40,673 nt of DNA. Origin: an uncultured Clostridia bacterium. Its GTDB lineage: Bacteria > Bacillota > Clostridia > Oscillospirales > Acutalibacteraceae. Shown here one piece after another: positions 10,275-31,655 of this stretch; the first letter of the stretch is position 1, and each line of letters starts with the position of its first letter. The DNA lies in NCBI GenBank assembly GCA_947627725.1, contig CANQXE010000020.1, positions 1-40,673 on the forward strand, read 5' to 3'. Below the pieces are notes generated by a model. The model searched no databases. It worked only from the letters and a program-made list of their open reading frames with translations, and was not told the origin of the DNA. Position numbers and translations under genes: made by a program.

Positions 10275-10305
10275 ATTTCACCATAAATATTTATAATTTG
10301 ATAAT

Positions 10306-10376
10306 ATTATATCAAATTATGGAAAAATATTAAATAGTAAATTCATATTCGTTAAGAAAATATACATATTGGTTAA
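10306..10376 (-). promoter_or_regulatory. agrA promoter with 21-bp-period AgrA-box
   Basis: TATAAT lies at 10306-10311 on the minus strand. Upstream are CATATTCGTTAA (10344-10355) and CATATTGGTTAA (10365-10376), identical at 11 of 12 positions and exactly 21 bp apart. This is the paired-site layout of LytTR regulators and implies autoregulation. Confidence 0.65.
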
Positions 10377-10381
10377 AATAT

Positions 10382-10416
10382 AAAAATCCTTCATGTAAAA
10401 AGCATAAAGGATTTTT
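10382..10416 (-). terminator. terminator at the end of the biosynthetic operon
   Basis: AAAAATCCTT and AAGGATTTTT form a 10-bp stem with a T-rich tail on the minus strand. It separates the carrier-protein gene from agrA. Confidence 0.75.
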
Positions 10417-10427
10417 ATAAAATGCTA

Positions 10428-10664
10428 TTATAAATAGCCATCAACTAGTTTAATTATAGATTCAATTGTTGAGAATTTTTCTAAAACCATATCAGAATCA
10501 TCAAATTCAAATTTATAACTGTTTTCAATATCGATTATTAAACTTATTAAAGAAAGCGAATCTAATCCTATGTCAAATAAATTTTGATTTGATGTGATAT
10601 TAGAATTTAATTGCAGATATTTTTTTAATTCATTGACCAAATATTTCTCGATATTTTCTTTCAT
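10428..10664 (-). CDS. acyl/peptidyl carrier protein
   Basis: A 78-residue carrier protein. The phosphopantetheine motif is DIGLDSLSL with Ser36, and helix II continues LISLIIDIENSY; the chain is acidic, as expected. It starts by an ATGA overlap with the amino acid:[carrier protein] ligase-like gene, a strong sign that the ligase loads this carrier with an amino acid on the phosphopantetheine thiol. A host phosphopantetheinyl transferase is needed, as none is visible here. It is the last gene of the minus-strand cluster. A fatty-acid-synthesis carrier is unlikely because no other fatty acid gene is near. Confidence 0.93.
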   Translation of the reverse strand: MKENIEKYLVNELKKYLQLNSNITSNQNLFDIGLDSLSLISLIIDIENSYKFEFDDSDMVLEKFSTIESIIKLVDGYL

Positions 10665-11431
10665 ACTCTATTTTTATTATCCCTTTCTAATAATTCTTGT
10701 ACTTTATTATTGGTTAAAGAAGATATCCAACGTTCCAAACCTACTCCTATACAACCAGTAACAATTGTATTATTTCTATCAAATTGAAATGCCTTACTAA
10801 AGTGAAATCCATGATAATTAATTGAACCTATTGATAATTTTTCACCATTCAAATTAATAATCATTTCCATCTTTTGCTTGTTAATCAGTTGCAATTTCTT
10901 TTTTATAGTATTTTCTCTGCTTGGATAAAACGGATCAGATGCAGCTTCAAGTTTTATATTTAATCCGATACTATTACCGTATTCAACAATTAAGCTCCCT
11001 ATATTATTTAATTTACTCATTACATCATCAACAGTACCAACAACAACAATTTCACGAACTGTAAAATCAATCAATCTTGTTTGTCCGTCAGTTTGTTTTT
11101 CTTCATTCCGATATACCCTAGCCCTGGTTGTAAAAACTCCACTATCTATTTGCCGATCTCCAAATATTGGATAAAAATGCAAACACGCTGAAGGAGTCAA
11201 TAACATATTATCATATTTATTTTGTTCTTTTAAAGGTTTTATTCCGATTATTTGGTGAGGAAATGAATCAAAATAACCTATTTTTTCTAATACATTTTTG
11301 TTAATTATTGCAGGAATATGTACATCAATAGGCCTCATTTGTTCAATTAAGTTGTAAATATCATGATCAATTCTTTTTATTGCGGTTGCCGTTTCACCAA
11401 TTAAACAAATATATTCTTTGTTATTATTCAT
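10661..11431 (-). CDS. amino acid:[carrier protein] ligase-like class II synthetase homologue
   Basis: A 256-residue class II aminoacyl-tRNA-synthetase core without a tRNA-binding domain. Motif 2 is visible as RVYRNEEKQTDGQTRLIDF and VREIVVVG; motif 3 is TGCIGVGLERW near residue 225. Cys83 (PSAC), a Glu of motif 2 and Cys227 fit the Cys/Glu/Cys zinc site of the atypical seryl-tRNA-synthetase relatives that activate a small amino acid and attach it to a carrier protein. The following gene is a carrier protein with a 4-bp overlap, which fits that reaction exactly. The amino acid is unknown; Gly, Ala or Ser would be typical for a zinc-site enzyme. A leader with two alternative hairpins precedes it. 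Cytosolic. Confidence 0.85.
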   Translation of the reverse strand: MNNNKEYICLIGETATAIKRIDHDIYNLIEQMRPIDVHIPAIINKNVLEKIGYFDSFPHQIIGIKPLKEQNKYDNMLLTPSACLHFYPIFGDRQIDSGVFTTRARVYRNEEKQTDGQTRLIDFTVREIVVVGTVDDVMSKLNNIGSLIVEYGNSIGLNIKLEAASDPFYPSRENTIKKKLQLINKQKMEMIINLNGEKLSIGSINYHGFHFSKAFQFDRNNTIVTGCIGVGLERWISSLTNNKVQELLERDNKNRV

Positions 11432-11449
11432 ATTAATTCACATAGCCTT

Positions 11450-11512
11450 TCTGACTACAAATAGAAGTATAAAAATCACGATTACCCTTGTCGTAGTCAG
11501 ACAAGGCGTGAT
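11450..11512 (-). promoter_or_regulatory. terminator-like leader with a competing pairing
   Basis: On the minus strand, CCTTGTC/GACAAGG (with ATCACG/CGTGAT below it, 11475-11512) ends in a T-run, so it looks like an intrinsic terminator. A competing 9-bp pair, TCTGACTAC (11450-11458) with GTAGTCAGA (11493-11501), uses bases of its loop. The ligase gene starts 19 bases further on. Confidence 0.5.
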
Positions 11513-11572
11513 GCGGATTTAGTCATCTCAAAATTATGCCATAGGCAAATTTTTGGGGCAATATAATCGGTT

Positions 11573-11592
11573 TAGTGTGATTATTCACACTA
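11573..11592. repeat. perfect 8-bp palindrome with TTAT loop
   Basis: TAGTGTGA-TTAT-TCACACTA lies between the nucleotidyltransferase and ligase genes. No T-run follows it on the minus strand, so an operator is as likely as an RNA hairpin. Confidence 0.45.
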
Positions 11593-11620
11593 TCTCTTTA
11601 TTTTACATTGTTTTTTAATT

Positions 11621-12676
11621 TTATTCTATGAATTCCATATGTTTAATTGCATTATTTTTTAAGTCGAAATCAAATGCTCTCTGGTATATGTTGATTGGCC
11701 AGGTCTTTAGTTTGCCACTCTTTGTCATATAAACATCTAAATTATTTTCTATTGTATTATTATCATCGCAGTATTTTTGCAAGTCATCATCAACTAAAAA
11801 ACTTGAAAAAGCATTAATTGTTTTTAAACAATAAATAATTTGATTTTTTATTACATATTTTTCAGAATATTCTATAATTTTTGATTTTTCAATATGATTC
11901 ATACTTGATAAAAGCAACATAATATCAATTATTCTAAATAGTTTTAATTCGTTGGTCGGTTCACCAAGTACATAATCTGAAAATACAAATCTTGTCGTCT
12001 CATTATAATAATGGCAACACAAATGAAGGAACATAAATACTCTATTAAGTATTCTACAATTCAAATTTTTGTCGAGATGAGAATTTTTTATTAGTTCGTT
12101 AAATGGTATTTGATTATTTTCAAATCCTTTCCATTGAAATAAAAAATTCAAATCTATATTTATTGGTATACCATTTAACAATTTAACCATATTAACGGTT
12201 TCATGTTTGTACATTTTGCTGAATATAATATCACTTTTTTTTGCTGGTTCTATTTTATCAATATTTTTAAAATAATATCCTTGCGTATAGCCTTCTTTTT
12301 TTAGTATTTTTTCCGCTAAAGAAATTTGTGCGAAATCTATAATTAGGTCTATATCTTTAAACTTTCTAATTACAGGAAATGGATAAATTGAATTGAGGGA
12401 CATTCCTTTAATTAAAATAAATTTAATATTGTTTTGATTAAAAACCCTTGTCAAATCATTTAAAATAATTCTATAATTTAGATAATTGTTACATTCAGAA
12501 TTAAATTCTGATAGTAGCAAATTTTTTAATTTATTATCATAATTATAAAAATAATTAAGCATTAATAAGTCAATTTTATGATAATTATATTTAGAATATT
12601 TATCATAATCATTGAAATCAATATTATTTTTTTGAGTTATTTCATATAACACATTTTGTAAAATATTAAATTCCAT
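11621..12676 (-). CDS. nucleotidyltransferase-fold protein (NTP_transf_5 type)
   Basis: A 351-residue protein with the nucleotidyltransferase-fold pattern near residues 95-130: FILIKGMSLNSIYPFPVIRKFKDIDLIID, that is a KG motif followed by two spaced acidic residues (DID). The C-terminal two-thirds is helical and carries His/Cys residues in LHLCCHYYNE. This group often sits in peptide- and sugar-modifying clusters; the substrate is unknown, and nucleotidyl transfer to a small molecule or a carrier-bound intermediate is inference. AGGAGA lies six bases before the ATG. It is separated from proS by 640 bp containing a terminator, so it begins a new transcription unit. Confidence 0.75.
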   Translation of the reverse strand: MEFNILQNVLYEITQKNNIDFNDYDKYSKYNYHKIDLLMLNYFYNYDNKLKNLLLSEFNSECNNYLNYRIILNDLTRVFNQNNIKFILIKGMSLNSIYPFPVIRKFKDIDLIIDFAQISLAEKILKKEGYTQGYYFKNIDKIEPAKKSDIIFSKMYKHETVNMVKLLNGIPINIDLNFLFQWKGFENNQIPFNELIKNSHLDKNLNCRILNRVFMFLHLCCHYYNETTRFVFSDYVLGEPTNELKLFRIIDIMLLLSSMNHIEKSKIIEYSEKYVIKNQIIYCLKTINAFSSFLVDDDLQKYCDDNNTIENNLDVYMTKSGKLKTWPINIYQRAFDFDLKNNAIKHMEFIE

Positions 12677-13312
12677 AGTATCTCTCCTTTATTATATTAT
12701 TAAACAAAATTGATACAATTTTTAGAAACCCTTTAATAGTGTTGATTAATAATTCATATATGATTTTTATGGGGAAGTATATTATCTATATTTTATTAAT
12801 AAATCTATATTATATGGTAATTTTATTAACATATATAACACTATTAGAATATACATTTGCACTTTTTTTCACAAATTATAAAGAGTTTTTTGTACTTTAC
12901 ATTATTCTCTAAACGACTTATTATGTATTAAGTTTACAATGTAAACATTTTAATACGATAGGTGTATTGCAAATTAATGGCTTGGACAGTGGATTACCAA
13001 TCAAATTGTATTTAATGAATCTAGCTATCTGCTATATCAGTGGATGGGGAAGAAAAGCTTAATAGTGAAAAATGCATAAATTGTTTATATTGTATAGAGT
13101 AGAGATGTCGATACCATTTTTATACTTTGAAACAAACACTATATAATATTTACCCTTATATATTGAGTTCTACAATGTTTTTATTCCCTATGTTTTAACT
13201 GGGGTTTATTCTTTACTGAAGATATAATAAAAGAGCGAATAAACTTTCGTCGTTTATTCGCTACTTTATACATAAATGATAAGTGTACTATATCTAACTA
13301 GGCATTATTGGT
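12677..13312. other. AT-rich gap without a supported gene
   Basis: This stretch contains the proS terminator and no open frame with a ribosome binding site. Short open stretches at 12950-13065 on both strands have fewer than 40 codons and look like decayed sequence. A promoter for the nucleotidyltransferase operon must lie here, but no strong -35/-10 pair stands out. Confidence 0.5.
13235..13261 (-). terminator. intrinsic terminator of proS
   Basis: GCGAATAAAC and GTTTATTCGC form a perfect 10-bp stem with a seven-base loop, followed by TCTTTTATT on the minus strand. Confidence 0.85.
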
Positions 13313-15019
13313 TTATTCATTTGTTAATTCTTTTAATGTTTCAAATATGTTGTTTCTGTTAACAATAAGTCTGGTGTTTTCTTCTCTAATAAGAATTTCA
13401 ACACTGTTTTGTTCGACCGTTTTCGGACTAACAATTATCCTAATTTTCATTCCAAATAAATCTGCATCTGAAAACATTTGTCCTGCACGAATTTCTCTGT
13501 CGTCATATAGAATATCATAATCATATGATTGCAATTCAGAATATAGGTTATCTGCAAATTCTTTTACTTCATTAATATCAGATCTCAGGCAGCATAGCTG
13601 CAAATCCCATGGTGATATTGTGAGTGGCCATATTGGACCGTGTTCATCGTGGTGTTCTTCACATATAGAAGCAACCAGACGACCTACGCCTATACCATAG
13701 CATCCCATTATTGGATTAAAACTGTTTTGGCCGATAGTTGTTGTCATATTCATTTTCTCGGTATATTTATTTCCTAATTGAAATATATTTCCAACTTCTA
13801 TACCATTTTTCAGTTCAATTCTATTTTTGTTGCATTTTGGGCATAAGCAATCTTCGTTAATTTTAGCCACATCAATATAATTAACTTTATTAACATCTCT
13901 ATTAATATTCAATCCTATATAGTGTTCATCAATAGAATTTGCACCACACACTAAGTTCCGTTCATATTCCAATGATTTGTCATAGTATATTTCAAATTTG
14001 TCAGTATCTAATCCTACCGGCCCGATAAATCCTGCTGTTAAATCATTAGAATAATTTAGATTTGCCGGAATAATATCTTCTTCAACTAAATTTCTCAGTT
14101 TAGTTTCATTTACAGTCATATCTCCTCGAATGAAAACAATTATATAATTATTGCTGCTTGTTCTACTGTAAACTACGGCTTTACAAATTCTTCGTTCACT
14201 ATAACCCAATACATTATGCAAATCATCTATTGAACGCAAATTTGGTGTGCTGATTTTCACTAATTTCTCTTGTGTTTCACTTAATATGCTTTTTACATAA
14301 TTACAAGGCGCTGTTTCAACATTTGATTTATAATCACATTCTGAACATATAGCAATTGTGTCCTCACCTATATCTGTAAGATACATAAATTCGTGAGATA
14401 CTTTACCACCCATCATACCAGAATCGGATTCAACACATATAACATCGGATAATCCAACCTCATCAAAAATTCGATTATAAACATCTAAACATTTATAGTA
14501 GTATTCGTTTAGATTTTCTTCTGTTAAATGGAATGAGTAAGCATCCTTCATACAGAACTCTTTTACTCGTATTAATCCTGCTCGCGGTCGCGCTTCATCT
14601 CTAAATTTAGTTTGTATTTGATAAATCATAAAAGGATAGACATTAGGATTTTTTCCAAAATCCTTAACTAAATGCACTGCTGCTTCTTCGTGAGTCATAC
14701 CCAATACCATATCTGTATTGTTTCTGTCTTTGAATCGGACTAATTCTTCTCCAATACTATAATATCTATCGGATTTTTTCCATAAATCAGCAGGCATAAC
14801 AACTGGTAGTTTTACTTCCTGTCCGTCTAGTTTATCCATATATTTGCATAAAATAGTTTCAATTTTTTTGGTAATTCGTACTAGTGGATAATAGTTTGAA
14901 AAAATACCACTCGACATTTGCTTGATGTACCCACCTCTTATTAATAAATTATAACTAATAGTATTGCTGTCAGATGGATTTTCTCTAAACCTTTCGCCAA
15001 TAATTTTTGATACTTTCAT
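13313..15019 (-). CDS. proS: prolyl-tRNA synthetase
   Basis: A 568-residue bacterial-type ProRS that attaches proline to tRNA-Pro in the cytosol. Motif 1 lies near residue 65 (KLPVVMPADLWKKSDRY); a GMTHEEA signature and motif 2 follow (RDEARPRAGLIRVKEFCMKDAYSF); motif 3 is CYGIGVGRLVAS near residue 447. The editing insertion (residues 230-395) with a Cys-rich piece (CPKCNKN) and the anticodon-binding domain (from 470) are present, so it is full length and looks active. It sits inside a biosynthetic cluster, has its own promoter and a proline T-box, and its codons are as AT-rich as its neighbours'. A housekeeping copy is expected elsewhere, so I infer a self-resistance or supply role. GGAGG precedes the ATG. 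Confidence 0.96.
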   Translation of the reverse strand: MKVSKIIGERFRENPSDSNTISYNLLIRGGYIKQMSSGIFSNYYPLVRITKKIETILCKYMDKLDGQEVKLPVVMPADLWKKSDRYYSIGEELVRFKDRNNTDMVLGMTHEEAAVHLVKDFGKNPNVYPFMIYQIQTKFRDEARPRAGLIRVKEFCMKDAYSFHLTEENLNEYYYKCLDVYNRIFDEVGLSDVICVESDSGMMGGKVSHEFMYLTDIGEDTIAICSECDYKSNVETAPCNYVKSILSETQEKLVKISTPNLRSIDDLHNVLGYSERRICKAVVYSRTSSNNYIIVFIRGDMTVNETKLRNLVEEDIIPANLNYSNDLTAGFIGPVGLDTDKFEIYYDKSLEYERNLVCGANSIDEHYIGLNINRDVNKVNYIDVAKINEDCLCPKCNKNRIELKNGIEVGNIFQLGNKYTEKMNMTTTIGQNSFNPIMGCYGIGVGRLVASICEEHHDEHGPIWPLTISPWDLQLCCLRSDINEVKEFADNLYSELQSYDYDILYDDREIRAGQMFSDADLFGMKIRIIVSPKTVEQNSVEILIREENTRLIVNRNNIFETLKELTNE

Positions 15020-15039
15020 AATTTTCCTCCTATAAAAAA

Positions 15040-15310
15040 TAAAATCCTAGACTAATTTATTAGTCTAGGACGATTTATAACCGCGGTACCACCTAAATTC
15101 AGATAAACTGCTCTTTTAATACATCAATCAATGTATTTCCTCTATAACGGTAGGACTCCGATAAGTCTTAATAGGCTTTTAGCCGTTTGACTACTGCTCA
15201 AAGATAGGTTCAATGAATATCTTTTTCTAGACTCTCAGCATATGTCTATTCTCTGTAAAAAAGTTAAATTCATCTACTATTTCTCATCATAGCATTTACA
15301 AATATTCTAT
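15040..15310 (-). promoter_or_regulatory. proline-specific T-box riboswitch
   Basis: On the minus strand the T-box sequence GGTGGTACCGCGG is at 15080-15092. Stem I shows CAGAGA and GCTGAGAG of its distal part, followed by the specifier loop GAACCTATC with triplet CCU (proline). The terminator stem CCTAGACTAA/TTAGTCTAGG (15046-15069) ends in a T-run. Uncharged tRNA-Pro should switch on proS. The UGGU end fits a tRNA with discriminator base A. Confidence 0.95.
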
Positions 15311-15321
15311 TAATTAATATT

Positions 15322-15349
15322 ATTATATATTTTTTCACTAAAATGTCAA
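15322..15349 (-). promoter_or_regulatory. consensus sigma-A promoter of the proS T-box
   Basis: TTGACA at 15344-15349 and TATAAT at 15322-15327 (minus strand) are 16 bases apart. It lies in the 3' end of the aldolase gene, so proS can be transcribed independently of the genes before it. Confidence 0.85.
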
Positions 15350-16342
15350 GTTAAATATTTTATTTATTGTTTTATCAATATTGTCATAAACATATCTTTT
15401 CTTTGACAAATCATCTAAACTGTTTAACACTTTAATCAAATCATTAATGCAAGAAACCTTAGTTAATATGTAATCTATTGTGTTTATATGAGCATTAAAT
15501 GTTGATGAAATAAAACTTTTTAAATTATATCCAGATCTACCGAATATACTATTGTAACGGTATATTACCTCTAATATTTCAATAATATTATAATTAGCGT
15601 CAGAATATTTGTTTAAATAATTTGTACAGATTTCAGTTGGTAAATTACCAGCACCTCGTCCAATTCCAGATAGTGTACAATCAACAACAATTTTTCTACC
15701 ATAATTAATACAGTTTCTCATTTCCTTCATCAGTTCAAATGATTGTAAACTATTATTATGCGTATGTAAACCAATCATTATATTTTTATTTAAGATTTCT
15801 TCAAAACTGTATAGTATTTTTCTCAAATCCCAAGTATTCATTGAACCAAAGGTATCCACTATTGAAAGACAGTTAATTTTAGTTTTATTTGCTATAGATA
15901 ATAGTACTGATAATTCTGATTGTTCATATGATAAAATGTCAACAGGCTGCAAGAATACTTCATATTCTAAATCTAAAATTTGCTCTATTACATTTGGAAT
16001 CAAGTTTAATTCATGCCTGTAAAAACACAAACGAATTACTTCAATTCCTTTCTTGTTACAAGGACCTAAATTATCAAAACTATATCTTGAGAAATCAGCG
16101 AGTACAGTTATTTTTTGGCTTTTTTTGTATGATGTTATTTCTTCAATCTTTTTGTCACGCTCATTTATAAAAACATTGTTTTTATGATTTGATTCGTTTT
16201 GTAAAAAACCTATTTCTATATATTCTATGTTGCTATTGCCCAATGCTTTATAAATTTGTTGATTAAAGTTCATAGAAAAATTTTTATCATATTGATAAGC
16301 GCCATCTCTTAAAGTGCAGTCTAACACATTATAGCAATTCAT
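15338..16342 (-). CDS. DRE-TIM (HMGL-like) aldolase/lyase
   Basis: A TIM-barrel metal-dependent enzyme of about 334 residues. The signature LDCTLRDGAYQ (residues 6-16), the metal-binding GLHTHNN and the barrel-end TLSGIGRGAGNLPTE place it with 4-hydroxy-2-oxovalerate-aldolase/HMG-CoA-lyase-like proteins. In sugar clusters these aldolases are found next to cytidylyltransferases and probably make an acidic sugar or keto acid, as inferred here. The frame opens at 16369, but AAGGA nine bases before the ATG at 16342 (MNCYN) marks the better start, with a 14-bp overlap with the glycosyltransferase gene. An isopropylmalate/homocitrate synthase is less likely because of the short length and the lack of a regulatory domain. 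Confidence 0.85.
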   Translation of the reverse strand: MNCYNVLDCTLRDGAYQYDKNFSMNFNQQIYKALGNSNIEYIEIGFLQNESNHKNNVFINERDKKIEEITSYKKSQKITVLADFSRYSFDNLGPCNKKGIEVIRLCFYRHELNLIPNVIEQILDLEYEVFLQPVDILSYEQSELSVLLSIANKTKINCLSIVDTFGSMNTWDLRKILYSFEEILNKNIMIGLHTHNNSLQSFELMKEMRNCINYGRKIVVDCTLSGIGRGAGNLPTEICTNYLNKYSDANYNIIEILEVIYRYNSIFGRSGYNLKSFISSTFNAHINTIDYILTKVSCINDLIKVLNSLDDLSKKRYVYDNIDKTINKIFNLTF

Positions 16343-17600
16343 GAATTGTTTTCCTTGTTTTTTCTTCAAAATTTGTAGGGATTATATATTCTTTTATTTT
16401 GTTTGTAAAATAATTGTTTTTTTCGGAATATTTTAAATTATTCCATTTATCTAATAAATCTAAAAAATCATCAAGGTTTGAAAAAACGTCAAAAGAGTTA
16501 TTTAATATAATAGGTGCTAAATTAAGTGCATACTCAAATATTTTAATTTTTTTTGCAATTAAATCTAGTACTATAGAACTCGAATGTATTATTGCAAAAT
16601 CAATATTTTGAGAAATTTCATCAAAATCATATGATGATTCATATATAAAAACACAGTGATTTTTATTATACTTATATTTCTTTTTATCTAGAGGGTGTGG
16701 CTTTATAATACATTTATACCCAGTTAATTTACAAATTTCATCAGCTAATAATATCATTTTATTATTAGATTCCTCTGAAAATTCGTGAGTTACACAATCT
16801 AAGAATATGCCGAATGTGTAATTTGTTTTAACTAATAGCCTTTCTTTCTTGCAGTTTGTTTTGTAATGGCTACCTACAATTACTATACTATCTCCATCGA
16901 TTCCGTAATTAGTAAGTTGTTTTTTTGTAAAGTTATTTTTTGCTAAATACAAATCACTTTTAAAATTAATTATTTGACTTTGATTTCTTAAATTGCTATT
17001 TGAGGAGTAAAATATTGGTTGACCATACTGAAAAGTGACCATTTTTATTTTATGAATGTATCGTAAATATGGAACTATAAGGTTTTCAAAAAAACCTGAA
17101 TCGTAAAAACATATACCCACTCTATAATTATAAGGAAAAATGTCCAGATTTTTTTCCAATTCAGTCAAATATGATAATTTTACTGCGAAAAAAATTTTGT
17201 CTTTTAAAGTGGTAACTTCTTTGAATTTTTTCAAATTCGAAGATAAAATTTTAAGATTTTTTTTAATAAGATTAATATCAATCTTACTGTGTTTTTTGAA
17301 TTCTACAATCATTTCATCATAATTGTCGTTATCAAAAATAGTTTTTATATAATCCCATTGGTTATCTCTTTTATCATTACCATGATAATAAGAAATTAGT
17401 AGTAAGTTTGAATTGTTATTTGTTTTTGAAACTTTTACATATTTAAAAAATAAATAATCGAGTAGTAATTTAATAGTATAGTGAATGCTTTTTTCTTTTA
17501 CTTTATATACTTCATTGTAAAGTAACGAATATAGATTAAAATCTGTATTATGTATGGATATGCTATTTTTGCAAAAAATATTTTTATATTTTTTTTCCAT
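16329..17600 (-). CDS. GT-B-type glycosyltransferase with HP motif
   Basis: A protein of about 423 residues, cytosolic or membrane-associated, Lys-rich at the N-terminus. The C-terminal Rossmann half carries CIIKPHPLDKKKY near residue 300, the HP motif typical of sialyl-, Kdo- and capsule-type transferases that use CMP-sugars, followed by FAIIHSSSIVLDLI. It lies between a CMP-sugar-type cytidylyltransferase and an aldolase, so transfer of the CMP-activated acidic sugar is a reasonable guess. The frame opens at 17636 inside the previous gene; the ATG at 17600 (MEKKYKN) with a weak AGAG is likelier. A CDP-glycerol-type transferase is the main alternative. Confidence 0.7.
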   Translation of the reverse strand: MEKKYKNIFCKNSISIHNTDFNLYSLLYNEVYKVKEKSIHYTIKLLLDYLFFKYVKVSKTNNNSNLLLISYYHGNDKRDNQWDYIKTIFDNDNYDEMIVEFKKHSKIDINLIKKNLKILSSNLKKFKEVTTLKDKIFFAVKLSYLTELEKNLDIFPYNYRVGICFYDSGFFENLIVPYLRYIHKIKMVTFQYGQPIFYSSNSNLRNQSQIINFKSDLYLAKNNFTKKQLTNYGIDGDSIVIVGSHYKTNCKKERLLVKTNYTFGIFLDCVTHEFSEESNNKMILLADEICKLTGYKCIIKPHPLDKKKYKYNKNHCVFIYESSYDFDEISQNIDFAIIHSSSIVLDLIAKKIKIFEYALNLAPIILNNSFDVFSNLDDFLDLLDKWNNLKYSEKNNYFTNKIKEYIIPTNFEEKTRKTIHELL

Positions 17601-18252
17601 TTGTCTCTTTTTGGTATTTGTATACCGCGTTAGCAATTATAAAATCCTCCATTGTATCAATATCTATAGCTTCTATTTTTGATGCTTCACAAATATATGG
17701 ATTTATATATGTTCTGCATTTGAATTTTTTATACAAATCTTTTTTAAATATATAAGAAGAAGAAACTTCCATATATATTTTTTCTAAATCCTGAGTTCTA
17801 GATATATTACTGTTATTAAAGTTTAATGGCTGTCCATCTTTCCATAATAGCGAGCATAAGTTGTAACCAATAAAGGCAGATGAATATTCACCATTATTAA
17901 CTTTTTCAATACAAAGATCAATTTTTTTTGAATTAGTAAAAGGGGCAGTTGCATGTGATATACAATATATATCAGCGTCTATTTTATCTATAAATTCATC
18001 CATAATCATTTGTGGTGTTGCTGAGTCACGATCCAATTCTTTTGATCTTTTTAAAAAAATGACATTTGGTAATAAGTATTTTTTTATTCTCTCATCGCTA
18101 CAAAAAACATATATGTCATCTATATGAGAAGACATTAATAATGCTTTTTGTATAAAATGGATTAAAGGTGTTCCGTCAAAAAATTCTTTAGTGTTTTTAC
18201 CCTTTAAACGTTCATTATTTGTTTTTATAGGAATCATTGCAGCAATTTTCAT
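17584..18252 (-). CDS. CMP-sugar (acylneuraminate-type) cytidylyltransferase
   Basis: A 222-residue protein of the NeuA/KdsB cytidylyltransferase family. It begins MKIAAMIPIKTNNERLKGKNTKEF, a nucleotide-binding loop with the Arg/Lys signature, and shows SHATAPFTNSKKID near residue 100 and EAIDIDTMEDFIIA near the end with the metal-binding acidic residues. It should couple CTP to a 2-keto sugar acid or a similar acidic compound. The aldolase two genes downstream could make the substrate. AAAGG lies eight bases before the ATG, and it overlaps the next gene by 17 bp. The actual sugar is unknown. Confidence 0.85.
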   Translation of the reverse strand: MKIAAMIPIKTNNERLKGKNTKEFFDGTPLIHFIQKALLMSSHIDDIYVFCSDERIKKYLLPNVIFLKRSKELDRDSATPQMIMDEFIDKIDADIYCISHATAPFTNSKKIDLCIEKVNNGEYSSAFIGYNLCSLLWKDGQPLNFNNSNISRTQDLEKIYMEVSSSYIFKKDLYKKFKCRTYINPYICEASKIEAIDIDTMEDFIIANAVYKYQKETNGKKI

Positions 18253-18264
18253 TTAATTTGCCTT

Positions 18265-19368: not shown

Positions 19369-19379
19369 ATTTATAACCT

Positions 19380-22167: not shown

Positions 22168-22168
22168 A

Positions 22169-22864
22169 TTACTCTAAATATTTCAAAATACTACTAAGTA
22201 CTTGATTTTTACTATTTTTCCCTTCAATTTTTACTAAATTAAATTTATTACTGTTAGTTTCTAACTTTTCATATAATTCTGCTATTTTATCATTGTTACT
22301 AAATAATGATGTCTTTGCATCGCTTCTATTTTTATTCCTTTTAACAATTTCATCAATAGATAAATGCAAATAAAAGGAATGATCAGCGGGTGGTATTATT
22401 GTTTTTTCATATTCTTGAGTCAGTTGATTTATATTCAAATGATATAAACTCCTATAAAATATTTCATCATAAAAATATCTATCAAATAAAAAAATTTTTC
22501 CTTTATTGTATAGTGGTATTATGACTTCTTTAAACCATAATTCAGCATCTCTTTTACAGGATAAAAACAACTGATATGCATCTGCTGTTTTAAAAAAAGC
22601 ATTTTTACTGTATAATAATTTATCTATTAACTCCTGTGTGTGTTTTGAACGTAAATAGAATCTTGTATATATAACATCGAAACTTTCAAAATAATTATAA
22701 TACTCTTTGATTTCCTTTATACAGTCGTAATTCTCGTTATCACTTAAATCGAATATTGAAGCCGTCTTTTTGCCTTGTTTTTTGTAATAAGATATCAACA
22801 TATTTAATTGTGTTGTTTTTCCAGCACCATCAATTCCTGATATAGATATTATTTTTCCTTTCAT
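22169..22864 (-). CDS. thymidylate-kinase-like P-loop kinase
   Basis: A 231-residue P-loop protein. The Walker A motif is SGIDGAGKTTQLNML near residue 10, and the DR-type motif is LFDRYFYDEIFYRS near residue 115, as in dTMP kinases. The lid region (NKNRSDAKTS) has the Arg/Lys residues expected to bind phosphates. It has drifted in the nucleotide pocket and lies in a natural-product cluster, so it may phosphorylate a nucleoside-like or sugar intermediate instead of dTMP. GAGGTG lies five bases before the ATG, and it is packed one base from the fused phosphatase-kinase. A housekeeping tmk is less likely here. Confidence 0.8.
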   Translation of the reverse strand: MKGKIISISGIDGAGKTTQLNMLISYYKKQGKKTASIFDLSDNENYDCIKEIKEYYNYFESFDVIYTRFYLRSKHTQELIDKLLYSKNAFFKTADAYQLFLSCKRDAELWFKEVIIPLYNKGKIFLFDRYFYDEIFYRSLYHLNINQLTQEYEKTIIPPADHSFYLHLSIDEIVKRNKNRSDAKTSLFSNNDKIAELYEKLETNSNKFNLVKIEGKNSKNQVLSSILKYLE

Positions 22865-22873
22865 ATAATCACC

Positions 22874-24178
22874 TCATAATGAATGAAACACATAAATGGG
22901 TTTGTGTTTCATGTTTTGAAAAACATATTTTTTATTGTTTTTTATTAATTTTGGACAATATGGATCACTTTTAGAAAATGGAATTTTTTCGACATATTTT
23001 CTAACTTGACAACCACCTCTACATTGAGTTTTAATCTTACATTCACTACATTCTTTGTTCGATTGTATTTCATTTATGTAGTTAATTAATTCCTCAGAGT
23101 TGATAATAAAATCTTTTAATGATTTGTAATTACAATAGTTTCCTAGATTTTTCTTATTCATTAGACAAGGAGTGATAATGCCATTAGGATTTATTGTCAA
23201 GAGTTCTTGTGCACCGATGCAGCCCATTCTGTTTGGTAAACCAACATTTAAACAATGATTTGTAGGATTGTTTATTATATCAATTTTAATTAAATGCATA
23301 TACCTTTCTTTGAGGATTAGCAATTCCTTAATTAAATCATAATGAGAAACTTTATTATTAAAGTAATATCCTTGCTCATGATATATTGACCTTTCTGGAT
23401 TCGAAAATTTTATTTTATCAACCCCCAAATCAATAGCTAGAAGTATATCTTTTTCTAATTCCTCAATCGTTGTATTTGGGAAAAATACAGGCTTGATACA
23501 TATTTCTGTATTACTATTTAGGATCTTTTTATTTTTCACAAGAAGTTTAATTCCGTTTACAGCTTTCTTAAAACTGCCCGATCCACGTAATTCATCATTA
23601 TTTTTTTCGTTGTAACTGTCTAAGCTAACGCTAATAGATAACAAATTATATGATAATAATTGCTTGCTATTATTGTCATTAATAAGTGTTCCATTTGTTG
23701 CCATTGAAAGGATCATATCATGAGAATCACAAAAAGAAACATATTCGAATAGTTTACTTTCATCTATCAAAGGTTCTCCTCCTGCCAAATGAACTCTCAT
23801 CACCCCTAAATCATAAAGATCATTCAAAATTCTAACAATGGTTGAATTATTTAAAGTATCGTTATTATAATGAAATTCTCTATTATAACAGTAGGTGCAT
23901 TTTAGATTACATTTAGTTGTGAAATCAAAATATGCTTCTAATGGAACAATTTGAACATCAGTAAATGTATTATCAACGAAATAGAATTTTTCGTTTTCTG
24001 ATAACAAGTTATTTAATCGTAAATAATCTAATACAATAGTTTTGCTTTTTTTAGATTTTTCAATATTGTAAAAATGTTCTGATAAATTTTTATCTTCAAT
24101 AAGATAATACATTTTTTTAGCTTTAATATATATCAAACAGCCATAATTTTCTTTGCGAATAGTAATTAAATTAATCAT
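22874..24178 (-). CDS. radical SAM/SPASM peptide-modifying enzyme
   Basis: A 434-residue radical SAM protein. The cluster motif is CNLKCTYC (Cys90, 94, 97), followed by HLAGGEPL. The C-terminal SPASM region holds the auxiliary-cluster Cys residues (CIGAQELLTINPNGIITPC, then CSECKIKTQCRGGC and YCPKL). The N-terminal 75 residues (GCLIYIKAKKMYYLIE...) resemble a leader-binding RRE-like domain, so the usual substrate would be a peptide, though no precursor gene was found in this window. AGGAG lies seven bases before the ATG. It could act instead on the carrier-bound amino acid. Confidence 0.92.
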   Translation of the reverse strand: MINLITIRKENYGCLIYIKAKKMYYLIEDKNLSEHFYNIEKSKKSKTIVLDYLRLNNLLSENEKFYFVDNTFTDVQIVPLEAYFDFTTKCNLKCTYCYNREFHYNNDTLNNSTIVRILNDLYDLGVMRVHLAGGEPLIDESKLFEYVSFCDSHDMILSMATNGTLINDNNSKQLLSYNLLSISVSLDSYNEKNNDELRGSGSFKKAVNGIKLLVKNKKILNSNTEICIKPVFFPNTTIEELEKDILLAIDLGVDKIKFSNPERSIYHEQGYYFNNKVSHYDLIKELLILKERYMHLIKIDIINNPTNHCLNVGLPNRMGCIGAQELLTINPNGIITPCLMNKKNLGNYCNYKSLKDFIINSEELINYINEIQSNKECSECKIKTQCRGGCQVRKYVEKIPFSKSDPYCPKLIKNNKKYVFQNMKHKPIYVFHSL

Positions 24179-24469
24179 GTTTTAAACTCCTTGATTAGAT
24201 ATGATTGAATTCTATTGCTAATTATATCTAGTTAATAATTAAATTTAACTGATTAATGTAAAATTGTTAGTTAAAAAAGCATAAATGTAAAAAAGATAAA
24301 TAAATCATTTATTAAAAGTAATAATATTGTTTAACTCGAATTTCATATTTCAATTATTTAAATTCGGTACTATATAATTTTGGATTAATCATTACGAGCA
24401 GTATTGATAATGAATATTATTAATCAGAGCATATAGTTACATAAATTCAAGTTGCAATATAATTTTAAG
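24179..24469. other. AT-rich gap; no gene or peptide precursor seen
   Basis: Both strands were read for a precursor peptide. Only frames of 12-13 codons without ribosome binding sites are present (for example an ATG near 24399 and one near 24346 on the minus strand). A promoter for the radical SAM gene may lie here. Confidence 0.5.
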
Positions 24470-25480
24470 TTATAATTCAACTACTTTATTTATAATTACT
24501 TGTTGCTTTTTTTCAATATATATCATTTTATTATATATACGATTAATTAAAATTTGTTGTGGTTTTACATTATATTTAGCACAAAAAATCAAATTGTTAT
24601 ATGCCTTATTCACTAATTGGTTTTGTTCTTCTATTATGTCTTGGCAGCATCCTATTCGCTCTAAAACCAGTTTAATTATTTTTTTATGTTCATATAAATT
24701 TCTGATTTCTTGTAAATATAATTTATCGTTGCTAGGACTTTCATTATTGTCATATATATTTATATGTTCCCTTTTAAATGATTTAATATATAGGTTAATG
24801 CCGTTTGCATCATTATGTACGAATAATCTATGGTGAAATGATACTAACTTAGGATTATAAAATTGTTTTAATCTTTTTAATAGTTTTTTATTTGAAATGT
24901 ATTTTTCTGAATAAGTGGGATTGATTTTTAATGAGTGATTTTGTAATTTACGAGGTCTAAATCGTGTGAATGATTTAGGAACTTTTTTTATAGAGGCAAT
25001 AAGATTATAATATTTAACTTTTATTGTCCCATAATACTCTCCAATACCTTTTTTATTTATGTATCCACAGCAATAAAATTCATTCATAAAATCATCATAT
25101 CCGTAAACCAACCAATCATGACATCGGTCCCTATCCCATTGTATTTCTGATATACCTAAATATTTTTCATTTAAATTAACCATCAAATAGAAGTTGTTAT
25201 CAATTTTGTTTTTTATTTGACCAATACTAACAGTTTTTAATTTAATATTGTGTTTAGTAATGAATCTATGTTTTTCTACATATCCACTTCCACAAAAATC
25301 AATGTGTCCACCTTTATAACTATAATAATGTAAATGAAAGAATTCGTTTATTAATGTTTCACTAATATCAAATCCATTAGCTTCCAAAATACCAAGATAA
25401 AATGCGTTATAAGGATAAGTTTTTATAAAGGGATCAGTATTAAGTGGTAATACCTTTTTTGTTAACATTGTTTTCATCAT
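24470..25480 (-). CDS. C39/BtrH-N-like protein, second copy
   Basis: A 336-residue protein without membrane segments. It shares a scaffold with the gene at 29090: TYPYNAFYLGILEAN near residue 20, then RCHDWLVYGYDD near residue 118 and EFYCCGYINKKGIGEYYG after it. The layout resembles papain-like BtrH-N/C39-like folds, in which an early nucleophile region is followed by a His and a GYDD strand. No Cys sits at the expected nucleophile place, so it may be an inactive scaffold or bind a carrier-linked substrate. The start is uncertain between ATGs at 25480 and 25468. It lies downstream of the two ABC exporters and mirrors the paralog upstream of them. Function inferred only. Confidence 0.55.
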   Translation of the reverse strand: MMKTMLTKKVLPLNTDPFIKTYPYNAFYLGILEANGFDISETLINEFFHLHYYSYKGGHIDFCGSGYVEKHRFITKHNIKLKTVSIGQIKNKIDNNFYLMVNLNEKYLGISEIQWDRDRCHDWLVYGYDDFMNEFYCCGYINKKGIGEYYGTIKVKYYNLIASIKKVPKSFTRFRPRKLQNHSLKINPTYSEKYISNKKLLKRLKQFYNPKLVSFHHRLFVHNDANGINLYIKSFKREHINIYDNNESPSNDKLYLQEIRNLYEHKKIIKLVLERIGCCQDIIEEQNQLVNKAYNNLIFCAKYNVKPQQILINRIYNKMIYIEKKQQVIINKVVEL

Positions 25481-25484
25481 CCTT

Positions 25485-27308
25485 TTAATTTAAGTAATAT
25501 TCGGCTTGAGCATTCCATAATTTTGCATATTTGCCATTCAATTTTAATAAATCATTATGTGTTCCTGTTTCTACAAGTTCTGCTTTATCAAATACGGCAA
25601 TATTGTCACAGAATGCACAGCTTGATAGTCTATGCGATATGTAGATAGCAGTTTTATTTTCTACAAAAGAATTGAATTTTGAATACATAGAACTTTCAGC
25701 AATCGGATCCATTGAAGCAGTAGGCTCATCTAAAATTACTATTGGGGCGTCTTTATATAGAGCTCTTGCAAGTGCAAGCTTTTGAGCTTCACCACCTGAA
25801 ATCTCTATTCCGGATTCTTCTAAGTCTTTGTAAAGATAAGAGTTCTCTTGATTATCCATTTTTAGAATACGCTCTTTAATATCTGCTTTTTCAAATGAAT
25901 CATATAGCTTGGCTTTATCATAATCATCACTTGCCGCAATGTTTTGTGCTGCAGTAAGCGAAAAAATTTTGTAATCTTGAAACACAACAGAATATAGTCT
26001 TCTAATGCTGTCTTTTGTATATTCTTTTATATTAGTACCATTAATATATATTGCACCTTCAGAAACATCATATAGTCTACATAGTAACTTAATAAATGTA
26101 GTTTTTCCGCTGCCGTTTTTACCTACAATTGCATAGTGTTCACCTGTGTTTATTTTTATGTTTATATTCTTCAATGCATATGTTTCGCAATTAGGATACT
26201 TAAATGATACATCTTTAAATTCAATATCAAAATTATTAGCAAAATCTAACTCTTTTGTTCCATATATCATTTCATCCTGAGTATTTAATATTTCAAAATA
26301 GTAATTTACAAGTGGAATTATTTTTTCAGTCTGACCAAATGTCCATGTCATTTTCATGACGCCTTTAACAATTTGCATAAATGAACCGCAGTACAATACT
26401 AATGAGCCAACACTGAATAATCCTAAGAGCCCTTTCACGCCAATGAATAAATATACTCCGAATCCAACTAAAGATGCCAAAATTGCTACGATGGAGCTGG
26501 AACGAGCACACTGTAAAGCTGTTTTTTTCATTATACTTTCGCCATCTGTAACTATTTTACTAGTAGCGATATCGTCTATAATGTTTTGTTCTTTATATAA
26601 TCGTATTTCTTTACCTGTCTTATAATCTGAAAACAAATTTAAAAAGTAATAATAAATTTTGTTGAGAGTTGCATATTGATTCTCTGATTCAAATTGGTTT
26701 TTATTCATTTTCAGCGCAATAAATAAGATTATTACTGCCATGACAATTACAGAAATAATCACACTGAAAAGAAATATAGGCTTTTCAAAAAAGGTTTTAC
26801 CGGTAGAAATAAATCCAATTTTAAATAAAGGGAAAATTAGAATTATTGACAATATGATGGTAACCATTCCGAAAATAAAATCTCTAATCATATATGCAAA
26901 TTGTGTGAATGCAGAATAAACTCGTTCTTGAGATTCAGAATGCTTATGTATTAATTCTTTAAAATTACTATCCTCGAGTTTTGAATATTCAATTCTGTAT
27001 AATTTTTCGGCAATATTTTTCAGCTCATTATTATACATTAGTGTTTTATGAACAAATTGAATGTCTCCTATGTAATTGTTCAAAAAAAATAAGATTAAAT
27101 TTATTATTAAAGCAAGACTGATATTGAATATAATAACTGACACATTTGCTTTACTAATTAGCAAATCCATTATTCTTGAAGTAAAGTAAATGTTTATAAA
27201 AGGCATAATAGCCATTATTATTGCAATAAATATTGAACTTGGAATAATGTTTTTTTCTAATTTTTGCATTTCCTTGAATGCTAATTTGATGGACTTTAAT
27301 TTATTCAT
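25485..27308 (-). CDS. ABC exporter half, membrane and ATPase domains fused
   Basis: A 607-residue type IV ABC exporter. Residues 1-330 hold about six membrane segments; the ATPase follows with Walker A GKNGSGKTTFIKLL, the signature SGGEAQKLALARAL, Walker B IVILDEPTAS and the switch His in ISHRLSS. No C39 peptidase domain is at the N-terminus. It probably pairs with the exporter encoded before it (8-bp overlap) as a heterodimer. Secretion or self-protection export of the cluster product is the inferred role. The start is the ATG at 27308, with AGGAG about 12 bases upstream. Confidence 0.93.
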   Translation of the reverse strand: MNKLKSIKLAFKEMQKLEKNIIPSSIFIAIIMAIMPFINIYFTSRIMDLLISKANVSVIIFNISLALIINLILFFLNNYIGDIQFVHKTLMYNNELKNIAEKLYRIEYSKLEDSNFKELIHKHSESQERVYSAFTQFAYMIRDFIFGMVTIILSIILIFPLFKIGFISTGKTFFEKPIFLFSVIISVIVMAVIILFIALKMNKNQFESENQYATLNKIYYYFLNLFSDYKTGKEIRLYKEQNIIDDIATSKIVTDGESIMKKTALQCARSSSIVAILASLVGFGVYLFIGVKGLLGLFSVGSLVLYCGSFMQIVKGVMKMTWTFGQTEKIIPLVNYYFEILNTQDEMIYGTKELDFANNFDIEFKDVSFKYPNCETYALKNINIKINTGEHYAIVGKNGSGKTTFIKLLCRLYDVSEGAIYINGTNIKEYTKDSIRRLYSVVFQDYKIFSLTAAQNIAASDDYDKAKLYDSFEKADIKERILKMDNQENSYLYKDLEESGIEISGGEAQKLALARALYKDAPIVILDEPTASMDPIAESSMYSKFNSFVENKTAIYISHRLSSCAFCDNIAVFDKAELVETGTHNDLLKLNGKYAKLWNAQAEYYLN

Positions 27309-29073
27309 GATTTGTATTCATCTCCTTATAGTAATAGCTTTGCGCTTGATACATTCTGTAATAAGCACCTTTTAATGCCATTAATTCTTCATGTGTTCCT
27401 GATTCAGTTATTTTTCCGTTTGAAATGAATAATATTCTGTCGCAAAATACTGTTGATGATAAACGATGTGAAATGAAAAATGAAATCTTATCTTTAGTTA
27501 TTTCATTATATTTTTCATATAGTTCTCCTTCAGCAATAGGATCAAGTGCTGCAGTAGGTTCGTCCAAAATCAGTATAGGTGCATTTTTGTATATTGCTTT
27601 AGCTAATAATAATTTTTGCTTTTCTCCGCCTGAAAACTCCGTAGCTTCTTTATAAATATCTTTTATCATTAAAGTGTTTTCTTTATCCTTTAATGACTCG
27701 ATTTTTTCTAATATTCCAGCTTTTTCAAATGAAGAGTATAATTTTTCTTTATCATATTTTTGGGTTGTACTTATATTTTCTGCTATTGACATAGGCATAA
27801 AAAAGTAATCCTGAAATACAACAGAAAACAAATTAAAGTAACTATCTTTTGAATATAAAGATATATCTTTGTTGTTTACGAAAATAGAACCTTGGGTCGC
27901 ATTATATAACCCACAAAGTAATTTGATAATTGTAGTTTTCCCAGCACCATTTTCTCCTATAATTGCAATATTTTCACCTTTTTTTATTTTGAAAGAAATA
28001 TTATTTAGCGTATTATGCTCCGAACCCGGATATTTAAATGATACCTTGTCAAATTCTATAGATTCTACAGAATCAAAATCAATTTTATCATTATTATCAT
28101 TTGCTGTTTCTTCTTCAATATATTCTCTATATAAACCGCAAGATTTACAGCAATATTCCATTCTTGATATTGAACCAACTAATTTTACAATCCAATTTGA
28201 AAAGCCTGAAATTATTCCAAAATAAAATATAAAATCAGAAACATTTATTTTTCCGTTATAGGTTAAATATACTAAATAAGAATAAGCAACTAATTCCCTT
28301 ATGAAATTCAGTATTGCTCTGACACTGCTTACTTTAAAGCTTTGTGGTCCATATTGCTTTGTTATTTTTTCTAAATTGGATATTATTTTTGCAAGTGTAT
28401 ATGTAAAGTAATCTTCAAAATTATATAGTTTTATATCTTTTGAAGCTGATGTATCTTTACTTAAATGATAGAAATAGTAAAATTTTACTGTTGCTCTGCT
28501 TCTTGTTTTATTTATAACCAATTCTTTATCGTGCAAAAATCTCAAAAGAAAGAATTCTATAGCACAGCTAATAAGAATAATTAAAATCATAAATATATTT
28601 ATTCTATAGAGTAATGTCATTGACGTAATTACACCTACAATACAAACAATGATTTGCCCCAGATTATCTATAAATGATGCGGCAGGGGAATAGCTGCTTC
28701 TGTAAAATTCGGATGCTTGTTTATTCCTTTTTCGCCCTTCAAGACTTTCAATATCAATATAGTCCATATACAGATTTTTTCTAAATGCAATAATTGAATA
28801 TCTCATTCGTATAATATTAGAACTTCCTTTTAAAAGTTCTTGCATGAAAGGGTCTAACCATGTAATTAGAGTAATTAATAGACTCAACAGAGCAATAATC
28901 ATTACAAGTCTGTTAATCGTTACACCATCTGTTATACAATCAATCATAACTTTAGGAATGTATGCTGTTATAATTGGTTGCAGGACAAGTGCAGGAACTT
29001 TTATTATAAAATAGATTAAGCTTTTTCTGTCCCATGTTAGCCAATTTTTAATCATATATTTGAAGTTATCCAT
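27301..29073 (-). CDS. ABC exporter half, partner of the next gene
   Basis: An ABC exporter of about 590 residues with six predicted membrane segments in residues 1-310, then Walker A GENGAGKTTIIKLL, signature FSGGEKQKLLLAKAI, Walker B ILILDEPTAALDP and ISHRLSS. Both ATPase sites look intact, as in its neighbour. The frame opens at 29088, but the GGAGG lies inside that opening and points to the ATG at 29073 (MDNFKYM). The gene overlaps the next exporter by 8 bp. Substrate unknown; a heterodimer exporting a small peptide-like or glycosylated product is inferred. Confidence 0.93.
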   Translation of the reverse strand: MDNFKYMIKNWLTWDRKSLIYFIIKVPALVLQPIITAYIPKVMIDCITDGVTINRLVMIIALLSLLITLITWLDPFMQELLKGSSNIIRMRYSIIAFRKNLYMDYIDIESLEGRKRNKQASEFYRSSYSPAASFIDNLGQIIVCIVGVITSMTLLYRINIFMILIILISCAIEFFLLRFLHDKELVINKTRSRATVKFYYFYHLSKDTSASKDIKLYNFEDYFTYTLAKIISNLEKITKQYGPQSFKVSSVRAILNFIRELVAYSYLVYLTYNGKINVSDFIFYFGIISGFSNWIVKLVGSISRMEYCCKSCGLYREYIEEETANDNNDKIDFDSVESIEFDKVSFKYPGSEHNTLNNISFKIKKGENIAIIGENGAGKTTIIKLLCGLYNATQGSIFVNNKDISLYSKDSYFNLFSVVFQDYFFMPMSIAENISTTQKYDKEKLYSSFEKAGILEKIESLKDKENTLMIKDIYKEATEFSGGEKQKLLLAKAIYKNAPILILDEPTAALDPIAEGELYEKYNEITKDKISFFISHRLSSTVFCDRILFISNGKITESGTHEELMALKGAYYRMYQAQSYYYKEMNTNHE

Positions 29074-29089
29074 AATTATGTCCTCCATT

Positions 29090-30073
29090 TTATGGTTTAT
29101 ATGTTTTTAAAATAAGTTTTAATATTTTTCTTTCGTCCTTATTTTCTTTTTTCAATTTTTCATAAACGGTATTTAACGTGTTTCTGTTTCTATTTTGATT
29201 GTATTTAAAGGATAATAGTAAAATCTTATATGTTTCGTTTACTATAGTTTCATATTGAGCTATAGTCGTTTGATCAATATTCATTCTTTTTAAACATAAA
29301 AGAACATTTTGCCTAAACTCATATATGATTCTTATATTTTGAATGTAAATTGTTTTTCGTTTGCTTTTTACAATATTTACTTTTTTGATTTTTCGTAATA
29401 ATTTATCCAAAGAATATATTCCAGCAACCGGATGCCAATATCCATCTCTTGCAAAATGTTTTGGTAAGAACATTTTTTTTACATTGTTATACAAAGTATC
29501 CGGCGTTACTTCTTTTTCTTTCCAATCCAAATTTATTTTAATAAAGTGACTTCTGAAATATGAAGGTGAAGGTTTGATATATCTTGGCAGAACTTTTCTA
29601 AAAGATGTTTCTATTTCTGAGTAACCCAATTTAATTATTCCCATTGTTTCACCATGTCCTGTACCGATATAACTTGAACAATAAAATTGCATTGATGAAT
29701 CATTATATCCATAAATCAGCCAATCGTGACAATAATCCCATGTAGCATGAACACTTTCATTTTGAAAATATTTTTGGTTTAACATAAGAATTGCATAATA
29801 GCCATTATTTATATGGTCTTTTATAGTTTTCACAATATCATTTGTTTCTGGAAACTCAATAGAACTAAATCTGTTGAATTCAAACATTCCGCTATTTCTA
29901 AAATCAATTTTATGAATTGCACTTTTTTTGAAATAATATAATTCTAAAAAATCATTTAGTATGATATCGGTATAATCAATATTATTTGCTTCAAGAATTC
30001 CGAAATAAAAAGCATTATATGGATATGTAAGCATCATCTTTGGTATTTTATATGGTAATATCTTTTGTGCCAT
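29090..30073 (-). CDS. C39/BtrH-N-like protein, first copy
   Basis: A 327-residue protein, paralogous to the protein at 24470. Shared blocks are LTYPYNAFYFGILEAN near residue 16, DYCHDWLIYGYND near residue 113 and QFYCSSYIGTGHGETMG after it. The pattern suggests a papain-like BtrH-N/C39-type fold; in butirosin synthesis BtrH moves an acyl group from a carrier protein to an amine, which would fit the carrier protein here. However, the usual catalytic Cys is not visible, so a non-catalytic role is as likely. It is the first gene of the cluster, starts with MAQKIL after an AGAGAGG, and abuts an exporter gene (one-base gap). Confidence 0.55.
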   Translation of the reverse strand: MAQKILPYKIPKMMLTYPYNAFYFGILEANNIDYTDIILNDFLELYYFKKSAIHKIDFRNSGMFEFNRFSSIEFPETNDIVKTIKDHINNGYYAILMLNQKYFQNESVHATWDYCHDWLIYGYNDSSMQFYCSSYIGTGHGETMGIIKLGYSEIETSFRKVLPRYIKPSPSYFRSHFIKINLDWKEKEVTPDTLYNNVKKMFLPKHFARDGYWHPVAGIYSLDKLLRKIKKVNIVKSKRKTIYIQNIRIIYEFRQNVLLCLKRMNIDQTTIAQYETIVNETYKILLLSFKYNQNRNRNTLNTVYEKLKKENKDERKILKLILKTYKP

Positions 30074-30200
30074 TTTTTAGCCCTCTCTAAAAATATTTAA
30101 TTATTAATAAAGTATCACAAGATAGCAATTAGATTGTTTTTTATGCAATTCTGTTGATGATTTCTGCAATAAAGAAGTTATTGTGGTTATATAAAGTAAA

Positions 30201-30229
30201 AAGAGCTCTCTATCTGACAGAGAACTCTT
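30201..30229 (-). terminator. leader terminator upstream of the cluster
   Basis: An 11-bp stem with one G-U pair (AAGAG..CTCTT) and a seven-base loop is followed on the minus strand by TTTTTACTTT. It lies between the right repeat and the first cluster gene at 30073, so transcripts from the repeat would stop here unless antiterminated. Confidence 0.65.
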
Positions 30230-30264
30230 GGAAAATCAACTTTTATTATTTGTTTTATTTTATC

Positions 30265-30306
30265 TTGTTTATATATTACCGTTCACTATATAACTATTAT
30301 GGTTTA
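30265..30306 (+). repeat. right copy of 32-bp direct repeat with AgrA-box-like half-sites
   Basis: Bases 30265-30296 match 7365-7396 at 31 of 32 positions. TACCGTTCA and TTATGGTTTA have their GTT cores 21 bp apart, as in the left copy and in the agrA promoter. Confidence 0.8.
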
Positions 30307-31632: not shown

Positions 31633-31655
31633 TTGTTTTTTGAATAAAGATAATG

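Follow-up and report, generated by a model that had tools for sequence, protein, structure and literature searches.

A biosynthetic gene block that appears to be exchangeable cargo of a mobile export and regulation frame in an uncultured Clostridia bacterium

Contig CANQXE010000020.1 of an uncultured Clostridia bacterium of the family Acutalibacteraceae (assembly GCA_947627725.1) carries a run of 16 co-oriented genes (minus strand, 30073 to 10428) in which carrier-protein amino acid activation, cytidine monophosphate (CMP)-sugar chemistry and radical S-adenosylmethionine (SAM) enzymes stand beside exporters. Is this run one conserved pathway, and what might it make? An initial annotation, made from the sequence alone, had proposed an unrecognised pathway for a secreted small molecule. 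We analysed the whole contig (the window, 40,673 nucleotides (nt); G000:C20:1-40673 in our numbering) together with the rest of its genome (2.46 Mb in 58 contigs) and a sample of 300 genomes of the family spanning 135 genera. Every gene that the annotation had named is an open frame on the minus strand where it had been placed, and all but two of the items have profile matches above cut-off, those two being recognised by motifs; its gene list was correct as far as it went, and omitted a T-box leader, a prolyl-tRNA synthetase (ProRS), an NTP_transf_5 protein, two twin proteins and an agr unit. Genes, leaders and repeats of the element given below are all on the minus strand.

The run is not conserved as a unit. 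In G021, a genome of the same genus and like the window's genome a draft assembly, contig C30 has in the same order twinA (29090-30073; 77% identical), for which a CcbD/BtrH-like fold is suggested, two ATP-binding cassette (ABC) exporter halves (27301-29088, 89%, and 25485-27308, 84%; ABC_tran 110 and 114.4 bits, cut-off 25), twinB (24470-25480; 66%), which is a paralog of twinA at 33% identity, and the agr genes. By blastn against C30:1-40000, window positions 3239-10368 match at 84% and 24557-31712 at 81% DNA identity; between them (10369-24556) the sole match is 81 nt of a leader RNA, whose copy in G021 lies outside the corresponding middle. Gene order is retained for the twins and exporter halves, for agr and for the outer flanks, and everything between is exchanged: 14.2 kb in the window against an unrelated 13.8 kb in G021, with one protein common to both (blastp, E 1e-4), an NTP_transf_5 nucleotidyltransferase at 25% identity. 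The G021 middle also encodes a carrier protein, a CYTH-adenylation enzyme (TIGR01733 292.6 bits, cut-off 317.4), a weakly flavin mononucleotide (FMN) reductase-like protein, a deoxynucleoside-kinase-like protein and several proteins without a profile match. Since G021 has the same frame but another middle, we conclude that, judged by sequence, the block is a constant export and regulation frame plus exchangeable biosynthetic cargo on a mobile element. The gene-order search thus went against conservation of the whole block, which had been put forward as the support for a pathway.

Agr, cargo, exporters and twins together are bounded by two 26-nt direct repeats, an outer copy upstream of twinA (30265-30290, 0 mismatches) and an inner copy after agrD (7365-7390, 1 mismatch) (0.00 expected by chance in 100 shuffles); in G021, too, the repeat occurs at the two corresponding positions. 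Because two further copies in the genome (1 mismatch in a 20-nt core) lie upstream of genes read as mobilisation genes, we take the repeats to be origin-of-transfer (oriT)-like, a reading that replaced our first one of a LytTR box. A phage-type integrase is encoded at 37448-38599. The agr unit (7450-10274), which adjoins the cargo, consists of an AgrD-like signal precursor of 49 residues (7450-7599; named from sequence and place), AgrB (7586-8212; 126 bits, cut-off 23), an AgrC-type GHKL histidine kinase (8287-9567), whose frame is shorter in G021, and an AgrA-type LytTR response regulator (9567-10274) whose gene is broken by an in-frame stop codon and which has an intact relative in G021 (L102 13679-14707). 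The signal region of AgrD differs between the window and G021. G+C content is 25.8% in the agr part, 25.6% in the cargo and 27.2% in the exporter and twin part, against 37% at 1-5000 and 33.5% at 37000-40673.

Of the 300 family genomes, 10 (own included) match the twin pair, with close relatives in G021 only; so do two of 80 genomes of the genus, these being the window's own and G021. A genome-wide scan with four twins returned 36 stretches and a single locus, the G021 contig JAMPEQ010000007.1, in a collection that may omit the window's genome. Among plasmids there was no match to 10000-30300 by megablast, nor by tblastn to twinB or to the HP-motif protein described below. A distant third locus, in G053, combines a twin with a SPASM radical SAM enzyme, two ABC halves, an NTP_transf_5 protein and a fusion of a carrier protein to FkbH (FkbH 209.6 bits, cut-off 146.65), its likeness to the window resting on identities of 23-30%. 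With that limit on the third, these loci would pair three loaders (a synthetase core, an adenylation enzyme and an FkbH fusion) with one carrier-protein-plus-exporter logic. We rejected the NTP_transf_5 gene (11621-12676 in the window; 82.1 bits, cut-off 31.2) as a marker of the frame: it is present in 144 of the 300 family genomes, and in 30 of its loci, covered with at most about 1.5 kb of flanking sequence, there was an ABC match in three cases and a twin or acyl carrier protein match in none.

What, then, would the present cargo make? Its last two genes, which overlap by 4 nt, encode a stand-alone class II synthetase core resembling amino acid:[carrier protein] ligases (10661-11431; tRNA-synt_2b 41.4 bits, cut-off 29.3) and a carrier protein with a GLDS serine at residue 36 (10428-10664; PP-binding 41.1 bits, cut-off 20.8). 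The ligase-like protein matches Bll0957 across the catalytic core (E 1.3e-14), and its C83, E110 and C227 align with the C/E/C positions of that enzyme, presumably zinc ligands. It is shorter than Bll0957 (256 residues against 346 in the PDB chain), and its best NCBIfam model, 'amino acid--[acyl-carrier-protein] ligase', scores 85.2 bits, below the equivalog cut-off of 357; the class II core, the C/E/C positions and the adjacent carrier protein are alike. Relatives are few: one of 300 family genomes (the own one), two of 398 genomes of the phylum (the own one and a relative 30% identical over part of its length), and none among the 42 pattern stretches of a genome-wide scan with the ligase alone, in a collection that may likewise omit the window's genome. 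Plasmid relatives are 24-30% identical, and two plasmid relatives in Bacillota adjoin BtrH N-terminal-domain proteins and carrier proteins. With the ligase so rare and the middle swapped in G021, the idea of one conserved pathway block fails. A distant relative of the ligase in another genome (G404:C10) reads as a class II synthetase core that ends in a carrier-protein-like tail.

The sugar half of the proposed product is represented by an HMGL-like aldolase (15338-16369; 56.9 bits, cut-off 29) and a CMP-ulosonate-type cytidylyltransferase (17584-18252; CTP_transf_3 55.6 bits, cut-off 22.6), so that a CTP_transf_3 enzyme is linked to an aldolase able to form a keto acid. The cytidylyltransferase scores 73.1 bits with PseF, below the cut-off of 205.7, and its PDB matches are CMP-NeuNAc synthetases. 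The aldolase has a match at E 1e-20 in 68 of the 300 family genomes (own included); at 29 of these loci, the window's own not among them, a 41-46% identical cytidylyltransferase is adjacent in seven and a weak match (22-29%) in six more. This recurring pair supports a CMP-activated ulosonic-type sugar. At L045 a HAD phosphatase follows the pair, and at L046 and L048 the neighbour protein tested is of the GT52/polysialyltransferase type, a gene content that fits a route from a keto-acid sugar through a phosphatase step and CMP activation to transfer; by analogy, we infer that 15338-18252 may perform this route. Between the two enzymes lies a putative transferase (16329-17636). The annotation had called it an HP-motif glycosyltransferase, of which the motif stands and the family is unproven: it matched nothing in Pfam or NCBIfam and nothing credible among PDB sequences, and 25 columns around IIKPHPLD align weakly with a polysialyltransferase-like HP stretch (E 0.0013, probability 18%).

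These same genes could belong to a locus for cell-surface glycan modification, in which the CMP-ulosonic module, the HP-motif protein, FkbM and the radical SAM enzymes build a glycan bearing a carrier-activated amino acid, the ABC pair flips it and the ProRS is a passenger. Elsewhere such pairs of cytidylyltransferase and aldolase do occur in loci of the polysaccharide type, and in two of these loci polysialyltransferase- or GT52-like genes accompany them; the best score of each ABC half is with MsbA, though below cut-off. We nevertheless consider a glycan locus unlikely: we recognised neither a polymerase nor an initiating transferase or flippase in the run of 16 genes (two of which lack a profile match above cut-off), and the same frame in G021 holds an adenylation enzyme and no recognised sugar-activation gene. 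Compared with the CMP-ulosonic modules of polysaccharide loci, the window shares the CTP_transf_3 gene beside an HMGL aldolase, but its cluster is small-molecule-like and has a His-phosphatase gene in place of the HAD phosphatase of L045.

The remaining cargo enzymes lie between twinB and the cytidylyltransferase: a radical SAM/SPASM enzyme (22874-24178; CNLKCTYC), a thymidylate-kinase-like P-loop kinase (22169-22864; 58.4 bits, cut-off 27), a fusion of a histidine phosphatase with a possible APH-like kinase (20752-22167), a B12-type radical SAM enzyme (19380-20786; CPYNCAFC) and an FkbM-family methyltransferase (18265-19383; FkbM 53.6 bits, cut-off 22.7). In the fusion, the phosphatase half of the earlier assignment holds (His_Phos_1 54.7 bits, cut-off 21.7); for the kinase half the match to APH is no better than E 0.17. 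With Radical_SAM (cut-off 29.5), the two enzymes of that kind score 47.4 and 78.6 bits, and the top five NCBIfam matches of 19380-20786 are all B12-type families, far under cut-off. A phosphonate pathway, considered on account of a PhpK-like match of this enzyme, was rejected (65 bits against a cut-off of 600, and no phosphoenolpyruvate mutase match). The SPASM enzyme raises the alternative of a modified-peptide (RiPP) pathway, in which it would mature a small peptide for export by the twins and the ABC pair. Its residues 27-395 align with 5wgg, which we take to be CteB, and G053 has the same set of SPASM enzyme, two ABC halves and twin. Scanning eight gaps gave no convincing precursor open reading frame, the cargo consists mostly of sugar- and carrier-type genes, and no radical SAM enzyme was recognised in the G021 cargo, so that we regard a peptide product as improbable.

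A secreted molecule with an amino-acyl and a sugar part, as first proposed, remains the best reading of the predicted product. The joining step may fall to the twins. Among the 50 PDB matches listed for them, all six that align over 200 residues are CcbD or AziU2-U3; a PDB profile search with nine twins gave three matches, none credible. CcbD has an N-terminal catalytic cysteine, C19 according to the PDB title, whereas none of the nine twins has a cysteine within its first 30 residues. Sugar kinase, phosphatase and nucleotidyltransferase chemistry is a further likeness of the cargo to the lincosamide and butirosin pathways. According to a passage in PMC12945683, CcbD joins carrier-bound proline to an amino-sugar. 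The pathways of the lincosamides (celesticetin and lincomycin) and butirosin use a carrier-bound amino acid and a papain-like joining enzyme of CcbD/BtrH type (as excerpted from PMC10318531), features that our locus would share if the predicted loading and the suggested fold of the twins hold. The window differs from them in its loader, a synthetase core, in CTP-type sugar activation, in twins without the N-terminal cysteine, in its two radical SAM enzymes and in its exporter and agr frame, and no octose genes were recognised. A literature search limited to open-licence papers matched no described pathway, in agreement with the view that the combination is unrecognised.

The best clue to the target of the predicted product appears to be a second ProRS in the cargo, of the bacterial type with an editing domain (13313-15019; PRK09194 596.8 bits, cut-off 558), preceded by a T-box leader with the specifier CCU for proline (15063-15299; 115.7 bits) and followed by an intrinsic-terminator-like hairpin (13234-13262). 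The genome has eight other T-box leaders; in five of them the column from which the specifier was read gives GUA, UUC, UGC, AAC and ACC, and these five precede genes read as valine, phenylalanine, cysteine, aspartate/asparagine and threonine synthetases. The column gave no reading for the leader of a LeuA-like gene, and the remaining two leaders were unused. The housekeeping ProRS on contig C7 carries a ProRS-C_1 domain, which we take to be characteristic of the archaeal/eukaryotic type. The genome thus has two ProRS types, bacterial (family II) in the cargo and archaeal/eukaryotic (family I) on C7. A T-box-controlled ProRS of a family other than the housekeeping one suggests that the target is proline charging, and the cargo copy likely serves as a putative self-protection of the maker. 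According to a part of PMC9437257, the antibiotics albomycin, mupirocin and indolmycin target aminoacyl-tRNA synthetases and come with a spare resistant synthetase. The window resembles their clusters in holding a second, evolutionarily distinct synthetase; it differs in that this is a ProRS, in the pairing of families I and II, in T-box control and in that its product is only predicted.

The same gene could instead be a T-box stress copy hitch-hiking on the element, or a supplier of prolyl-tRNA for biosynthesis, in which case it would be silent on the target; we hold this to be a real possibility, if not the one we would choose. Weighing against self-protection, three of 40 other genomes of the genus carry a family II ProRS, 55-56% identical to the cargo copy and in other surroundings, and two of these three genes have a T-box; one was seen only on a 4.7-kb contig. 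Enzymes of this kind can also use aminoacyl-tRNA in biosynthesis, as stated in a section of PMC12945691. The cargo gene, however, lies inside the swapped 14.2 kb, a full family II copy is absent from G021, identity to the genus copies is no more than 55-56%, and no tRNA-dependent transferase was recognised. A decayed family II fragment elsewhere in the genome (G000:C22:9076-9239) is closest to the cargo copy (21 residues at 86%, 50 at 50%).

With self-protection retained, the parts can be assembled into a working model. The ligase would activate an amino acid and load it onto the carrier protein, while the aldolase and the cytidylyltransferase would supply the CMP-activated ulosonic-type sugar; the HP-motif protein, the kinases and phosphatase, FkbM and the two radical SAM enzymes would incorporate that sugar into a scaffold. 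The two parts would then be joined, perhaps by the twins, and the ABC pair would export the product under agr quorum-sensing control, with the T-box ProRS shielding the maker's proline charging. The genes and their families, the split into frame and cargo, the proline-specific T-box and the two ProRS types are observations, whereas the substrates, the joining, the agr control, the target and the export belong to the model. Taken as a whole, the model in which a mobilisable element with a constant frame now carries the block as its cargo, and the block yields an exported amino acid-sugar conjugate with a spare ProRS as protection, seems to us about evenly balanced between right and wrong. The fuller proposal, a quorum-sensing-controlled mobile platform with one export frame and interchangeable carrier pathways with non-homologous loaders, here making an aminoacyl-ulosonyl inhibitor of family I ProRS to which a T-box-induced family II ProRS confers self-resistance, is tentative and on balance doubtful. 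The locus needs a changed description all the same: in place of a conserved pathway that is unrecognised, a mobile export platform of which this is one exchangeable cargo, its product plausibly directed at ProRS. If so, it would offer a route to a bacterial natural product against ProRS, for which the natural inhibitor named in an excerpt of PMC7916415 is febrifugine, from a plant, and it would show a bacterium exchanging entire biosynthetic modules while keeping one exporter. With the two elements of the window and G021 as a pair, the rule of frame and cargo is directly testable.

Six of the 15 adjacent gene pairs overlap, in the manner of an operon. Between 24178 and 10428 there may be three or more transcription units, to judge by a leader RNA, the terminator after the ProRS and intergenic gaps of 318, 636 and 189 nt. 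This leader RNA, the one shared with G021, precedes the ligase gene (11428-11609; z -5.1) and has a hairpin with an apparent GTG-TGA start-stop, a terminator and an antiterminator; no Rfam family matches the window copy. We built a model from two copies (window and G021), with the terminator and without the antiterminator, and found the RNA in 61 of the 80 genus genomes (both included), with up to 28 copies per genome. In 30 aligned loci (L142-L171; one per genome, best first, from 30 of the 61 genomes) it ends at an open-frame start in every case, and the genes downstream look diverse. Both structures score above 500 of 500 shuffles, which ignore relatedness; the antiterminator is the more independent test because the model was built without it. 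Its inner helix is 97% paired, with five of 13 pairs changed on both sides, and its outer helix only 64% paired. As far as alignment can tell, the leader RNA is abundant, covarying and bistable, and it offers a regulator for study in its own right.

Outside the repeats, possible defence genes adjoin the element at 31670-37359 (a STAND-like NTPase with pentapeptide repeats, a DUF4062 protein and a Schlafen AlbA_2 protein), and a pemK RNA motif lies at 5186-5245, as one does in G021.

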